Shown one piece after another: positions 4,579-35,719 of a stretch of 64,000 nt of DNA (positions are counted from its first letter, which is position 1; each line of letters begins with the position of its first letter). Origin of the DNA: Myxococcales bacterium. Lineage in GTDB: Bacteria; Myxococcota_A; Polyangia; Polyangiales; Polyangiaceae. The stretch covers positions 1 to 64,000 of the forward strand of contig JAAFHV010000013.1 in the NCBI GenBank assembly GCA_013297655.1, in the 5' to 3' direction. A program made the translations under genes and the position numbers. The notes below the pieces were generated by a model. That model was not told the origin of the DNA. It was given only the letters and a program-made list of their open reading frames with translations, and ran no database searches.

Positions 4579-5574
4579 CTACGGACGAGGCGCAGCCGTG
4601 CGAGGCGGAGAAGATCGACGCCCGAGATCGTGGCCGACGATCCGTGACAGCGACGCGCGGACCGGATCGACGAGGGCGGAAATCAACGTACGCTCGTGGT
4701 TTCGCTCCGCGCGCACGAGGCCGACCCGCGGCGGCCTCTCGCGTGTCGCGATGCGCAGGGTGCCGAAGAGGAGATCCCAGATCGCGAGCGCTGAGCCGTA
4801 ATTGCTGGATACTTTTGCGAATTTTGCGTGATGGAGCTGGTGCTGGGCCGGGCTCACGAAGATACGCTCGAGCGGCGCGGGCCAGGCCACGAACGCGTGC
4901 GAGTGGCGCAAGCTCGCGCCGGCCATCGTCCAGAGGAAGCCAATCGCGTCGACCCCGAAGATCTCGATCGCCCGCAGCTTGCCAGGATAGAGCCACACGA
5001 AGACGCCCGTCACGAGACCGGCGGTGAGCACGCCGCGCGCTTGGTTCAAGGCGCTCTCGATGGGGTGGACCCGGTAGAGCGTGAGGGGCGTGAGCAGGTC
5101 GGCGGAGTGGTGCACCTTGTGGATCTCCCAGAGCGCGGGCACCGCGTGCATGGTGCGGTGGACCCCATAGCGCGTGAGATCGTCGGCGACGAAGAGCGCG
5201 ACCGTGAAGGCGACGAACAGCCACGTGCGATCGGCGGGAGCGACGAGCCCGGACCGACCCACGTGCTCCAGCGCGAACCCCGCGATCGCCATCGCGATCC
5301 CGAGCGCACCGACGCGAAACGGCCAAACCAACACCGCGTGCACGAGCCCACGCACCACGCACCACGCGACGTCGAAGCGCGACGACGCGTGGAAAAAGAG
5401 CTTCCGCGGGAAGAGCCAGCGCCCGAGCGACGCACGCGCCACACGCCGCCGCGCGACAATCCACGCGAGCGTGACGAAGCCCACCGAGCACAGTAGGTAC
5501 GGCAAATGAACCCGGTGGCTCGGCCCGAACAGCGCGACGAATGGCTCGATCAGCGATTCCAGAAGAGGTGGCAC
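4579..5574 (-). CDS. Sterol desaturase / fatty acid hydroxylase family membrane protein
   Basis: The 331-residue integral membrane protein carries the di-iron histidine boxes of the fatty acid hydroxylase superfamily: HRTMH (HxxxH) near residue 141, HKVHH (HxxHH) near 153, a later SHAFV segment and QLHHAKF near residue 248. Several hydrophobic helices precede and separate the boxes. Members use a non-haem di-iron centre and O2 to hydroxylate or desaturate lipids or sterols. Some myxobacteria make sterols, but the substrate is not deducible here. The start is a GTG preceded by a GGAG ribosome-binding site about 7 nt upstream. Confidence 0.82.
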   Translation of the reverse strand: MPPLLESLIEPFVALFGPSHRVHLPYLLCSVGFVTLAWIVARRRVARASLGRWLFPRKLFFHASSRFDVAWCVVRGLVHAVLVWPFRVGALGIAMAIAGFALEHVGRSGLVAPADRTWLFVAFTVALFVADDLTRYGVHRTMHAVPALWEIHKVHHSADLLTPLTLYRVHPIESALNQARGVLTAGLVTGVFVWLYPGKLRAIEIFGVDAIGFLWTMAGASLRHSHAFVAWPAPLERIFVSPAQHQLHHAKFAKVSSNYGSALAIWDLLFGTLRIATRERPPRVGLVRAERNHERTLISALVDPVRASLSRIVGHDLGRRSSPPRTAAPRP

Positions 5575-31180: not shown

Positions 31181-32098
31181 CTACTTTGGGGCTCGCGACA
31201 ACGAGAGCGAACGCAGCTCACGGACGAGGGCCTCGAAGACGACCGCGACCCGTGGAACCGTGCGTAACGTCGCGCGCGTGACGACGAACAGCTCGAGGTG
31301 ACCGAGCGCGGAGGCTCCGGGGGGCGAGAGCACCGCGAGGTCGGGGAGCACCTGCAGCAACATGCGCGGCGCGACCGCGACGCCGAGCCCGGCGCGCACG
31401 GCAGCGAGCTGCGTCTCGACGCTGGAGCACTCGAGCCTCGGTGTGGCCCCCAAGCGTGCGAGGGCGCGCGACTCGGGCGTATCGGCGCGCTCGAGCACGT
31501 ACGAGGTCCATGGGAGCTCGTGCGGTGCGACCTTCGCGAGCTCGGCCTTTCGTTTCTTGGAGACCAGGATCGCGAGGTCGAGACGCGCCACCCGTTGGCC
31601 CACGAGCTCTCCCTTCGCGGGACGAAAAAAGCGCAGCGCGACGTCGGCCTCGTGGCGCTCGAGATCGGCGACGTCGTCGCTCGTGCGGAGAAAGATCGTG
31701 AGCCCTGGATAGTCGGCGAAGAGCGATGGAAGGATGCGCGGGACGACCACGTGCTGCGCGAGCCCCTCGGTCAGCGCGAGGCGAACTTTGCCCCGCGGGA
31801 GCTCCTCCGCGCGGCGGGCAGTGTCTTCCAGCGCGAGCACCGCCCGTTCGACCGCGAGCGCGGGCTCGACGAGCGCGTCACCGTGCGACGTGCGCCTCAC
31901 CGCGCGCGCGCCCCGCTCGAAGAGAGCGCGACCCAAATCCGCCTCGAGAGACGCCACGCGCCGGCTCACGGTCGACTGGTCCGTCGCCAACGCGCGCGCG
32001 GCACCGGAGAAGCTCGCCGCCCGCACGACGGCGAGGAAGTACCGAACGTCCTCCCATTGGTTGAGCCCGACCGGCGGGTGGGGTGCGAGCTGTGCCAT
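31181..32098 (-). CDS. LysR-family transcriptional regulator
   Basis: This is a regulator of about 305 residues with the LysR N-terminal helix-turn-helix (residues 10-70: WEDVRYFLAVVRAASFSGAARALATDQSTVSRRVASLEADLG). A periplasmic-binding-protein-like effector domain follows (KVRLALTEGLAQHVVVPRILPSL onward). It is divergent from the flavodoxin-fold oxidoreductase at 32168, the usual arrangement for a LysR protein and its target. The start is set at the ATG at 32098; a second in-frame ATG at 32110 is possible. The palindrome ATGCA-N4-TGCAT (32097-32110) overlaps the start and may be an autoregulatory site. Confidence 0.85.
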   Translation of the reverse strand: MAQLAPHPPVGLNQWEDVRYFLAVVRAASFSGAARALATDQSTVSRRVASLEADLGRALFERGARAVRRTSHGDALVEPALAVERAVLALEDTARRAEELPRGKVRLALTEGLAQHVVVPRILPSLFADYPGLTIFLRTSDDVADLERHEADVALRFFRPAKGELVGQRVARLDLAILVSKKRKAELAKVAPHELPWTSYVLERADTPESRALARLGATPRLECSSVETQLAAVRAGLGVAVAPRMLLQVLPDLAVLSPPGASALGHLELFVVTRATLRTVPRVAVVFEALVRELRSLSLSRAPK

Positions 32099-32127
32099 GC
32101 AATCGTGCATAGCATAGATGGGCATCT
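32097..32127. promoter_or_regulatory. Candidate LysR operator region (two short palindromes)
   Basis: The 69-bp divergent spacer contains ATGCA-N4-TGCAT at 32097-32110 and AGATG-GG-CATCT at 32116-32127. Their location between a LysR gene and its divergent neighbour fits an operator, although no binding data exist. Confidence 0.35.
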
Positions 32128-32167
32128 GTGCCTGGATTGCCCGCCGCACGGTGAACATAATCGGGCG

Positions 32168-32797
32168 ATGACACAAGCCCTCGTGCTCCTCGGCCACGCC
32201 GAAAAAACGAGCTTCAACGCCGCGCTCGCAAACGCCTACGCCGATGCCTTCCGCGCGGCGGGAGGCTCCGTGAAGCTAGTGACGTTGAGCGACCTCGCGT
32301 TCGATCCGATCCTCCGCGCCGGCCACTCCGGGGCGCAGCCGCTCGAGCCCGACCTGCTCGCCCTCCGCGACGCGTTCGAGGAGGCGCGCCACGTGGCGTG
32401 GTTCTTCCCGACCTACTGGGTGTCGCCGCCGGCGGTCGTTCTTGGCCTCGTCGATCGTCTCTTTTTGCCAGGGTGGGCCTTTCGCTACGAGAAGGGGAAG
32501 GCGCTCCCGGTGGGGCTCCTTCGCGGACGAAGCGCGCGGGTGGTGACGACGATGGACAGCCCCGCGTTCTGGTACACGCTCGCGAACCACCGCGCGATCC
32601 ACGGCTCGTTCGTGACGGGGACGCTCTCGTTCGTGGGCTTCGGCCCGATCCGGACGACGCCGGTGTACTCGCTGCGCGACCTCGACGCGAAGGCGCGCGC
32701 CAAGGTGCTCCGCGACATGACGGCCCTCGCTCGCCGCGACTACGCCAAAGCCCCCCCAGCGCTGCCGGAGCCCGCGCTCGCCCTGAAGAGCCATTAG
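32168..32797 (+). CDS. Flavodoxin-fold NAD(P)H oxidoreductase (Kef-QR/MdaB type)
   Basis: This 209-residue cytosolic protein has the flavodoxin-like fold. It starts with a first strand and phosphate loop (ALVLLGHAEKTSFNAALANAY, residues 4-24). It has a central FPTYWVSPPAVVLGLVDRLFLPGWAFRY segment that is characteristic of NAD(P)H quinone reductases such as MdaB/KefF. Such enzymes reduce quinones or electrophiles in two-electron steps using FMN or FAD. Divergence from the LysR regulator suggests induction by an electrophile or quinone. The ATG at 32168 is preceded by sequence antisense to nothing, so this start is secure. Confidence 0.85.
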   Translation: MTQALVLLGHAEKTSFNAALANAYADAFRAAGGSVKLVTLSDLAFDPILRAGHSGAQPLEPDLLALRDAFEEARHVAWFFPTYWVSPPAVVLGLVDRLFLPGWAFRYEKGKALPVGLLRGRSARVVTTMDSPAFWYTLANHRAIHGSFVTGTLSFVGFGPIRTTPVYSLRDLDAKARAKVLRDMTALARRDYAKAPPALPEPALALKSH

Positions 32798-32857: not shown

Positions 32858-33442
32858 ATGAGCGAAGACGGCCGTGGGAAAGAAGATTGGTTTTACGCCG
32901 CGGTCGTAGAGAACATTCCGACGATGGTGTTCGTGAAGGACGAGAGCCTGCGCTTCGTCCTCTTCAACCGCGAAGGGCGCGAGCTTTTGTGTCTCCCGGA
33001 GGACAAGCTCCTCGGGAAATCGGACCATGACTTCTTTCCGAAAGAGCAGGCCGACTTCTTCAATGCACGCGACCGCGAGACGCTCGCGCGGAAAGAGGTC
33101 GTCGCGGTAGAGGAGCCCGTCGATACCGAGAACGGGCGACGCTACCTCTACACGAAGAAGATCCCGCTCCTCGATCCGGCCGGCAACCCGAAGTACCTGC
33201 TCGGCGTCTCGCTCGATATCACCGAGCGAAAGGCGATCCAGGACGAGCTCGAGGCCGTGAACCAGAAGGCTCGCGAGGCGCTCGCGCAGGTCATGGCGCT
33301 CGAGCCGCTCGCGGCAGCCGGTGGGCGCGCGGCCGAGGTCGGGAGCAAGATCGCCGAGCTCCTCGAGGGCTCTGCATCCGACGATCCGAAGGTAAAAGAA
33401 GCTCTCATGCTCGCAAAAGCGCTCGTCCTCGAGGTCGGGTGA
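32858..33442 (+). CDS. Stand-alone PAS-domain protein
   Basis: This is a 194-residue protein consisting of one PAS domain (about residues 9-130). Typical features are an N-terminal cap (FYAAVVENIPTMVFVKDESLRFVLFNREG), the core SDHDFFPKEQADFFNARDRE and the conserved end of PAS/PAC (LLGVSLDITERKAIQDELEAVNQKA). A helical tail (residues 130-194) could be a dimerisation signal helix. No kinase or GGDEF domain follows. It lies immediately upstream of the ECF/anti-sigma pair (43-bp gap), so it may sense redox state or a ligand for that system. No Cys or His cofactor ligand is obvious. Confidence 0.75.
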   Translation: MSEDGRGKEDWFYAAVVENIPTMVFVKDESLRFVLFNREGRELLCLPEDKLLGKSDHDFFPKEQADFFNARDRETLARKEVVAVEEPVDTENGRRYLYTKKIPLLDPAGNPKYLLGVSLDITERKAIQDELEAVNQKAREALAQVMALEPLAAAGGRAAEVGSKIAELLEGSASDDPKVKEALMLAKALVLEVG

Positions 33443-33450
33443 CGATTCCT

Positions 33451-33478
33451 TGTAACGGTCTGCCGGTGGTCGGGGTCT
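33451..33478 (+). promoter_or_regulatory. ECF-type promoter upstream of the anti-sigma/sigma pair
   Basis: TGTAACG (33451-33457) is separated by exactly 14 nt from GGGGTCT (33472-33478). The same two blocks with the same 14-nt spacing precede bcp at 34390. GTAAC-like -35 and GTCT-like -10 elements are typical of ECF sigma factors. The -10 ends 7 nt before the GTG of the anti-sigma gene, so the mRNA may be leaderless. Confidence 0.65.
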
Positions 33479-33485
33479 CATCGCC

Positions 33486-33773
33486 GTGATCGTCACTTGC
33501 CGAGATCTCGCGGCGCGTCTCACCGAGCTCGAAGAGGGCGTCGGCTCGGCCGTCGAGCGTGCCTCGCTGCGCTTCCATCTGTCGATATGCGCGCGCTGTC
33601 GGAGGTACGTCGCCGAGCTCGACCGCCTGAAGGGCTTGCTCACCGATCTCGGCCGCGAGCAGGACCCCGTCGTTCCGATGTCCGCGGAGGCCGCTCCGGA
33701 TCCCGCCGTCGCGCGAGCGCTCTCGACGTTTCGCGCTTGGAAAACCGGTGAATCGTCCCCCGACGACGACTGA
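33486..33773 (+). CDS. Zinc-binding anti-sigma factor (ZAS type)
   Basis: This 95-residue protein has the ZAS motif Cys5-x25-His31-x3-Cys35-x2-Cys38 (HLSICARC), as in RsrA/ChrR-like anti-sigma factors. There, zinc holds the fold that binds region 2 and 4 of the sigma factor, and oxidation or another signal releases it. No membrane helix is present, so it is cytosolic. The GTG start (33486) follows the -10 element by only 7 nt, with no ribosome-binding site. The gene overlaps the possible GTG start of the sigma gene and lies upstream of it, whereas the usual order is sigma first. Confidence 0.8.
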   Translation: MIVTCRDLAARLTELEEGVGSAVERASLRFHLSICARCRRYVAELDRLKGLLTDLGREQDPVVPMSAEAAPDPAVARALSTFRAWKTGESSPDDD

Positions 33774-33774
33774 C

Positions 33775-34371
33775 ATGCACCCCGAGGACGCCTTGGTTGT
33801 GCGCGGTCTGCTCGCGCGAGACGAAGCCGTCTTCGAGGCGCTCGTGAGGCAACTCCACGGCAAGCTCGTCGCCGTCGCGCGGAGGCTGCTCGGCGAGCAC
33901 GAGGCCGCGGAAGACGTCGCGCAAGAGACGTGGCGCCGCGTGCTCTCGTCGATCGCGACCTTCGAGGGCAAGAGCAGACTCGCCTCGTGGATCGTGCAGA
34001 TCGCGAAGAACCGCGCAAAAACCCGCCTGGAACGGCGCAAGCGCGAGATCCTAATCGGCGACGAGGGCCTTGATCCGACCGCGACGTGGTTCGACGGCTT
34101 CGGCCAATGGCGCTCCTCGCCCGCGGCTTGGGACACTCCCGAGTCGAGCCTCGAGCACGAGCGGCAAAAGCAACTCCTCGCCGACGCGCTCCTCACCCTC
34201 CCCGCCCGCCAGCGCGTGGTCGTCACCCTCCGCGACGTGGAGGGCATGGACGCCGCGACGGCGAGCGAAACCCTGGGAATTTCGCAGGAGAACCAGCGCG
34301 TGCTCCTCCACCGTGGGCGCGCCGCGCTTCGCGACGCGGTCGCCGCCGCCATGCGCGCGCGACCCTCGTGA
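33775..34371 (+). CDS. ECF RNA polymerase sigma factor
   Basis: This is a 198-residue sigma-70 family factor. Region 2 is at residues 8-80 (VFEALVRQLHGKLVAVARRLLGEHEAAEDVAQETWRRVL). A linker of about 40 residues contains WFDGFGQWRSSPAAWDTPE. Region 4 is at about residues 130-185 (LTLPARQRVVVTLRDVEGMDAATASETLGISQENQRVLLHRGR). It should direct RNA polymerase to the TGTAACG-N14-GGGGTCT sites found before its own operon and before bcp. The ATG at 33775 is used; a GTG at 33748 would overlap the anti-sigma gene. There is no signal-sensing extension. Confidence 0.87.
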   Translation: MHPEDALVVRGLLARDEAVFEALVRQLHGKLVAVARRLLGEHEAAEDVAQETWRRVLSSIATFEGKSRLASWIVQIAKNRAKTRLERRKREILIGDEGLDPTATWFDGFGQWRSSPAAWDTPESSLEHERQKQLLADALLTLPARQRVVVTLRDVEGMDAATASETLGISQENQRVLLHRGRAALRDAVAAAMRARPS

Positions 34372-34389
34372 CGATTTTCGCGATTCGTC

Positions 34390-34417
34390 TGTAACGCTCG
34401 GCCGCCTCACGGGGTCT
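34390..34417 (+). promoter_or_regulatory. Second copy of the ECF-type promoter, before bcp
   Basis: TGTAACG (34390-34396) and GGGGTCT (34411-34417) are separated by 14 nt, identical in both blocks and spacing to the site at 33451. The peroxiredoxin ATG is 30 nt downstream of the -10, with an AAAGGACC ribosome-binding site between. Confidence 0.65.
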
Positions 34418-34447: not shown

Positions 34448-34897
34448 ATGCTGAGCACTGGAGAGAAGGCCCCCGAGATCGAGCTCGTCGCTGCGAACGG
34501 CAAGACCGTGCGCCTCTCGGATTTCTCGGGAAAAAAGCTCGTCGTATTCTTTTACCCGAAGGACGACTCGCCTGGCTGCACGCGCGAAGCTTGCCAGTTC
34601 CGCGACGCTTACGACGACTTCACGGAGGCCGGCGCCGAGGTCATCGGCATCAGCTCGGACTCGACCGCCTCGCACGAGGCGTTCGGGAAAAAACACGGCC
34701 TCCCGATGACCCTGCTCTCGGACCCGAAGGGCTCCGCGCGGAAGAGCTTCGGCGTCGGCTCCACCCTCGGCATCCTCCCCGGTCGCGCGACCTTCGTGAT
34801 CGACCGCGAGGGCGTCGTTCGAAACGCGTTCTCGTCGCAGCTCCGCCTCGGCAAACACGTGGAGGACGCGCTCGCGGTGGTCAAGAGCCTCTCTTGA
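34448..34897 (+). CDS. bcp: Peroxiredoxin of the Bcp/PrxQ family
   Basis: This is a 149-residue thiol peroxidase. The peroxidatic and resolving cysteines are Cys44 and Cys49 in PKDDSPGCTREACQF, the C-x4-C spacing of atypical 2-Cys PrxQ enzymes. The thioredoxin fold continues with VIGISSDSTASHEAFGKKHGLPMTLLSDPKG and ATFVIDREGVVR. It reduces hydrogen peroxide and organic hydroperoxides in the cytosol with thioredoxin. Its promoter is the second copy of the ECF motif, so it is probably under the control of the adjacent sigma factor, giving an oxidant-responsive circuit. Confidence 0.93.
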   Translation: MLSTGEKAPEIELVAANGKTVRLSDFSGKKLVVFFYPKDDSPGCTREACQFRDAYDDFTEAGAEVIGISSDSTASHEAFGKKHGLPMTLLSDPKGSARKSFGVGSTLGILPGRATFVIDREGVVRNAFSSQLRLGKHVEDALAVVKSLS

Positions 34898-34975: not shown

Positions 34976-35719
34976 GTGAACGAGACCGATGGGCTCCACG
35001 TGACGGTGCTCGAGCTCCCCGCGCGGTGGGAAGCGCGTGACGAAGCGCTCGCCGACGTCGACGCGCTCCTCGAAGGGCAGGTTACGGATCTCGTCGTGCT
35101 CCCGGAGCTCGCCATCACGGGGTACCTGTCGCCTCTCCTCGACGCAGACCTCACTCGCTTCGGCGAGCCGCTCGACGGGCCCACCATGTCCGCGCTCGCC
35201 GCGCTCGCGCGTCGACACCAGGTGCACCTCGTGGGCCCGCTCGTGCTCCGGGAGGGAGGGCACACGTTCAACGCCGCGGTGCTCCTCGATCGCGCGGGCG
35301 AGCTACGTGCACTCTACAAGAAACGACACCCGTGGATCCCGGAGCGGTGGGCGACGGCGGGCAGCGAGCGTCATCCCGTCGTCACGATCGAGGGCACGAA
35401 GGTCACCCTCGCGATCTGTTACGACCTGCATTTTCTCCCTGTCGAAGCTCGCGCGGAGCTCGTCGCGAGCGATCTCCTCGTCTTCACGAGCGCGTGGGTG
35501 GACGAAGAAGACACGCGCGTGCCGCTCCTCGCCGAGCTCTCCCGCACGTTCGGGATCGCGGTCGCGAACGCCAACTGGAGCGCGGGGGTGGTCGATCTGC
35601 CGGGCCAAGGCGGATCGGTCGTCCTCGACGCGAGCGGAAACGTGCTCGCGCAGGTGGAGCCCGGGCAGCGCGCCGCGGGGGCGCGGATCGACGTCTCGAA
35701 ATCGCGACACCGACTGTAA
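34976..35719 (+). CDS. Carbon-nitrogen hydrolase (nitrilase superfamily)
   Basis: This 247-residue enzyme has the full Glu-Lys-Cys triad of the superfamily: Glu44 (VLPELAITGY), Lys116 (YKKRHPW) and Cys148 (LAICYDLHFLP). Family members hydrolyse amides such as omega-amides or N-carbamoyl compounds in the cytosol; the substrate is not predictable. The GTG start at 34976 is close to the bcp end (78-bp gap), but there is no second ECF-like site, so co-transcription is only possible. Length is slightly short for the family, yet the core is complete. Confidence 0.88.
   Translation: MNETDGLHVTVLELPARWEARDEALADVDALLEGQVTDLVVLPELAITGYLSPLLDADLTRFGEPLDGPTMSALAALARRHQVHLVGPLVLREGGHTFNAAVLLDRAGELRALYKKRHPWIPERWATAGSERHPVVTIEGTKVTLAICYDLHFLPVEARAELVASDLLVFTSAWVDEEDTRVPLLAELSRTFGIAVANANWSAGVVDLPGQGGSVVLDASGNVLAQVEPGQRAAGARIDVSKSRHRL

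Follow-up and report, generated by a model that had tools for sequence, protein, structure and literature searches.

The stretch of DNA analysed (the window) comprises 64,000 nucleotides of a Myxococcales bacterium. The locus studied here contains the genes of a small zinc-type anti-sigma factor, an ECF sigma factor and a peroxiredoxin, as well as two copies of a promoter-like motif. Its features are as follows.

32858–33442: PAS protein gene, upstream of P1
33451–33478, + strand: P1, predicted sigma-dependent promoter of the anti-sigma/sigma operon; exact motif, kept 5' of the anti-sigma gene in the related genomes G030 and G107
33486–33773, + strand: anti-sigma gene, soluble zf-HC2 type, ligands C5-H31-C35-C38, GTG start (PF13490, 20.7 bits)
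33775–34371, + strand: ECF sigma gene, regions 2 and 4 (PF04542, 61.6 bits; PF08281, 45.1 bits)
34390–34417, + strand: P2, predicted sigma-dependent promoter of bcp; exact motif, kept 5' of bcp in the related genomes G030, G107 and G011
34448–34897, + strand: bcp/prxQ-type peroxiredoxin gene, C44-x4-C49 (PF00578, 140.6 bits)

The anti-sigma factor, the ECF sigma factor and Bcp are 95, 198 and 149 residues long, respectively. The ATG of the sigma gene lies one base after the anti-sigma stop codon, and this start is matched by MHPED in G030. The membership of the sigma factor in the ECF group was indicated by PF04542 and PF08281, both of which scored above their cut-offs. The peroxiredoxin belongs to the AhpC-TSA fold family and has its peroxidatic and resolving cysteines five residues apart (C44 and C49); the closest solved chain is 3drn. 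As its best named NCBIfam models, PrxQ and thiol peroxidase, stayed under their cut-offs (105.4 bits against 260 and 99.8 bits against 140, respectively), its Bcp-type label here comes from motif and best match and not from an equivalog.

P1 lies 8 nt from the anti-sigma GTG and P2 lies 30 nt from the bcp ATG. The GTG at 33486 is the first possible start of the anti-sigma gene, since a TAA within the -35 block closes the frame upstream. The -10 block ends at 33478, so a transcript started from P1 would have little or no leader ahead of the anti-sigma gene. The anti-sigma ATG of G030 is found at almost the same place relative to P1. Transcription from P2 would leave a leader of ~25 nt with AGAAAGGAC ahead of the bcp ATG. 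No sigma-70-like promoter was found near the locus. The gene calls of the first-pass annotation proved right, and so did its statement that the motifs precede the anti-sigma/sigma operon and bcp. It had also included the PAS gene in the module, and this part did not stand: no relative of the gene is present at the orthologous loci, and P1 comes after its stop codon, ahead of the anti-sigma gene. A carbon-nitrogen hydrolase gene located 78 bases after bcp (34976–35719), the product of which is weakly like deaminated-glutathione amidase, was likewise rejected as a module member, since the other module loci lack a relative. Just upstream of the PAS gene (31181–32797), a gene for a LysR-type regulator is divergent from a Flavodoxin_2 (quinone-reductase-like) gene; the two are possibly another redox unit.

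The search of the window for TGTAACG-N14-GGGGTCT gave two exact matches, both on the + strand (33451–33478 and 34390–34417), and no third site elsewhere in the window even when up to three mismatches were allowed. The same two copies, both of them intergenic, are the only exact ones in the whole genome (G000; 9,917,297 bases in 546 contigs). The first-pass annotation had reported that the motif occurs exactly twice with identical blocks and spacing and had proposed a genome-wide scan; its report is borne out both in the window and across the 9.9 Mb genome. The base composition predicts 0.06 exact copies in the genome, and the chance of a second exact copy on the same strand less than 1 kb away is about 6e-6. 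With up to two mismatches, the whole genome gave 14 matches versus 19 for the reversed-pattern control, that is, no excess beyond the pair, and the loose three-mismatch count in the window was at the background level (shuffle mean 3.4). The significance of the pair therefore comes from its exactness, its position and its conservation, not from the number of loose matches. The relaxed pattern TGTAACG-N14..16-GGTC added one site in the genome, which lies within an RHS-type reading frame. It should be noted that the genome scans are pattern searches, which weaker targets elsewhere could escape. A literature search for the motif returned chance sequences only. The hexamer CGATTC is present 2 or 3 bases 5' of both -35 blocks (33441–33451; 34376–34390), and GAATC-like stretches are seen 5' of P2 in G107 and G011; an extension of the promoter is possible.

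For the examination of conservation, the sigma factor was searched for in 108 genomes of the family Polyangiaceae. Three close relatives, 46–49% identical, were found in other genera (G030, G107 and G011), and the gene order anti-sigma, sigma, bcp is common to all three. Only four loci of this full type are known, two of which lie at contig ends, with bcp cut in G030 and P1 missing in G011. The motif is present at 5/5 readable promoter positions in the three relatives. The spacer is N14 at P1 and P2 of G030 and N13 at P1 and P2 of G107 and at P2 of G011; across the genera, identity is 94% in the motif core and 36% in the spacer. The first-pass annotation had staked its reading beforehand on conservation of the motif at orthologous loci, and the motif is indeed kept in the three other genera. 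In the four module genomes, TGTAACR-N13/14-NRGGTC had 10 matches, 7 of them at the module locus. The other three (G030, G107 and G000:C135) look intragenic and were rejected as promoters. Ten sites of a stricter pattern elsewhere in the family were rejected as well; genes for a sigma, an anti-sigma or Bcp are absent from their vicinity, and nine of the ten fall within a long open frame. TGTAAC-N14..17-GGTC was absent from the 29 bcp loci checked in the family that stand apart from such a sigma gene, and some of these standalone Bcps are 65–67% identical to that of the window.

The sigma factors and the peroxiredoxins have different histories. In a maximum-likelihood tree of 63 sigmas, the four module sigmas came out on a single branch, recovered in all 200 bootstrap trees (UFBoot 98, SH-aLRT 49). 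In the Bcp tree, in which the G030 sequence is cut at 58 residues, the proteins of the window and G030 were paired and those of G011 and G107 were nested in another clade; a single group of the four module Bcps was rejected (AU p = 0.0006). Since the sigmas form one clade and the Bcps two lineages, bcp was either replaced in place or acquired on two occasions without loss of the promoter link, and the link between promoter and target has thus outlasted the enzyme lineage. In either history, the predicted promoter marks bcp as the kept target. We tentatively suggest, at a little under even odds, that the regulon of this dedicated sigma is its own operon and one peroxidase, and that it was kept until another Bcp lineage replaced the peroxidase under the same promoter. 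The conserved unit would then be the promoter and the regulator, not the enzyme lineage.

The motif was also looked for in the wider clade of sigma/anti-sigma pairs. In 17 other homologs from the order, the sigma gene precedes the anti-sigma gene and no bcp adjoins. The 400 nt upstream of these sigma genes contain 7 copies of [TC]GTAACG versus 0.67 in shuffles, none of which (0/300) reached 7. Six of the seven sites are on the opposite strand. Five of these face the start of a divergent gene, encoding DoxX, GST, MAPEG, a glyoxalase-like protein or a Cys-rich protein beside an MbnB/TglH/ChrH enzyme, and the sixth has a DUF3641 radical SAM frame downstream. A candidate promoter motif is thus obtained for a wider myxobacterial clade of ECF/zinc anti-sigma pairs beside GST, MAPEG, DoxX and glyoxalase-like genes. 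Two distant homologs elsewhere in the phylum (L177 and L179) adjoin an AhpC/TSA gene (FYRGGWCPFC), which is a second association with peroxiredoxins.

Several further observations were made in these homologs. The [TC]GTAACG element is found upstream of the sigma gene in L108, L116, L117, L118, L121 and L122, in most cases opposite a divergent gene of thiol or electrophile metabolism, with -10 variants that end in G(A/T)C. Matches that fall inside the sigma gene were dismissed in L111, L112, L119 and L122 because they code for the CNxLG stretch in region 4.2. In the Rhizobiaceae homologs L048, L049, L050, L053, L056 and L062 (all near 4635), L052 (4639) and L059 (3877), TGTAACG...GTC lies between the sigma and anti-sigma genes, and there the anti-sigma gene may possess an ECF promoter of its own. 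The block of L048 overlaps the sigma stop codon, and its conservation may be partly coding. In the actinobacterial homologs L045, L046, L054, L057 and L058, the gene divergent to that of the sigma factor encodes in each case a similar secreted protein (HALFIETD...VLSY...).

The reading of the twin sites as ECF promoters, already made in the first-pass annotation, is supported by their look: a GTAAC-type -35, a GTC-type -10 and a spacer of 13 or 14. Judged from sequence, P1 and P2 are very probably promoters of this sigma. We propose, with a probability of about 0.72, that the locus is a self-contained and self-amplifying ECF sigma/zinc anti-sigma switch, the two predicted promoters of which drive its own operon and PrxQ. 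At rest, the small cytoplasmic zinc anti-sigma would hold the sigma factor, as expected from its family. The anti-sigma would release the sigma on a signal, for which oxidation of the thiols that bind zinc is the likeliest candidate, and the free sigma would guide RNA polymerase to TGTAAC(G)-N13/14-(x)(G/A)GGTC promoters, only two of which are detectable. The firing of P1 would yield more anti-sigma and sigma, a positive feedback with a built-in brake. The firing of P2 would yield the PrxQ/Bcp peroxidase, which would remove the oxidant. ECF regulons are usually guessed from one autoregulatory promoter. Here, a second near-identical promoter, the absence of the motif elsewhere in the genome and its conservation across genera despite two Bcp lineages point to a clean two-promoter circuit.

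The assignment of the anti-sigma factor rests on its ligands and its fold. C5-H31-C35-C38 is invariant in 23 homologs, and H-x3-C-x2-C beside an ECF sigma gene fits the ZAS family. The structural model consists of four helices (pLDDT 83), and its best structure matches are anti-sigmas (RsiW, Z 6.3; MucA, 5.2; RslA, 4.4), which scored above the unrelated rows; RslA was also found by sequence (E 0.003). The N-terminal cysteine, the residue required for oxidative sigma release by the ZAS protein RsrA (PMC4960319), is at the RsrA spacing (C11-H37-C41-C44 in RsrA). The residues E39, E40, L45 and E46, which flank the ligands of RsrA and contribute to its redox sensitivity (PMC5358783), are not kept; mapped by offset with no gap assumed, they correspond to S33, I34, R39 and R40. 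The protein scored 19.5 bits with the RsrA equivalog TIGR03988 (NCBIfam; cut-off 62.5) and is not filed as RsrA.

We consider it probable, with less confidence than in the promoters themselves, that the input is oxidation of the anti-sigma thiols. In H. influenzae, the expression of rpoE2 goes up with HOCl and H2O2 (PMC7907618). CHCC ligands do not prove redox sensing, since RsiW carries them yet is not released on oxidation (PMC5358783) and MseR, with the same ligand spacing, is unresponsive to H2O2, diamide and singlet oxygen (PMC2893595). The same promoter wiring could thus serve an anti-sigma that is no redox sensor and that answers to a soft metal, zinc loss, an electrophile or a partner protein, with PrxQ as general protection. 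The neighbours at the sister loci (GST, MAPEG, glyoxalase-like, DoxX and the Cys-rich protein beside the MbnB/TglH/ChrH enzyme) would fit electrophiles or metals no less than oxidants. However, a peroxidase is the predicted target in 4/4 module loci and AhpC/TSA genes adjoin the two distant homologs, and L15 and L48 are hydrophobic here as in RsrA, in contrast to the corresponding positions of RsiW. We therefore regard a non-redox signal as a serious but rather unlikely alternative to thiol oxidation.

It is very improbable that the paired blocks are the operator of another regulator, a repressor or activator common to both transcription units. The evidence for the sites comes from DNA sequence, and two blocks at a fixed spacing could suit a dimer, but neither block repeats the other in inverted or direct form and the spacer shifts by one base between genera. 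Fixed blocks separated by 13 or 14 nt favour contacts by sigma2 and sigma4 over a dimeric repressor. Moreover, the blocks resemble ECF promoters (GTAAC(g,a)-N14-15 of EcfF, PMC3420878; the meningococcal sigmaE -10 CGTCT), and their placement relative to the start codons is promoter-like. A chance repeat in GC-rich DNA is hardly credible: loose matches are common in the shuffles of the window, but an exact pair within 1 kb is not (about 6e-6), and the orthologous loci of other genera carry the pair as well.

The proposed sigma-driven circuit can be compared with four known systems. In Corynebacterium glutamicum, the ECF sigma SigH, which has the anti-sigma RshA, directly activates prxQ under oxidants, so an ECF sigma driving PrxQ is already known in kind; the SigH regulon, however, is large, and prxQ is not stated as part of the sigH locus (PMC5811025). 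In contrast, the module described here has two detectable promoters, the anti-sigma gene first and bcp directly behind. SigR/RsrA of Streptomyces coelicolor shares the C-x25-H-x3-C-x2-C ligands and the soluble four-helix anti-sigma (PMC4960319), but the thiol regulon of SigR is large, the charged residues flanking the RsrA ligands are not kept here and the RsrA equivalog score is far under the cut-off. EcfF/OsrA of Bradyrhizobium japonicum has a near-identical -35 and spacing, and EcfF is autoregulated and H2O2-responsive; meanwhile, its -10 is (c,t)CG(t,a) versus GGTC here, and OsrA acts via Cys129 and Cys179 and is not a small CHCC protein (PMC3420878).

The closest circuit in size is sigmaE/MseR of Neisseria meningitidis. 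MseR is a small zinc-type anti-sigma with the same ligand spacing (C4-H30-C34-C37), and the system is autoregulated, with a -10 of CGTCT and a tiny regulon limited to its own operon plus one gene for antioxidant repair (PMC2893595). It differs in that the anti-sigma gene comes after the sigma gene, the -35 is GTMAGBWTT with a 12-13 spacer, the target is msrAB and H2O2, diamide and singlet oxygen elicit no response (PMC2893595). Compared with these known kin, the module is distinct in its gene order, in having PrxQ as its sole detectable target beyond its own operon and in the link kept across two Bcp lineages.
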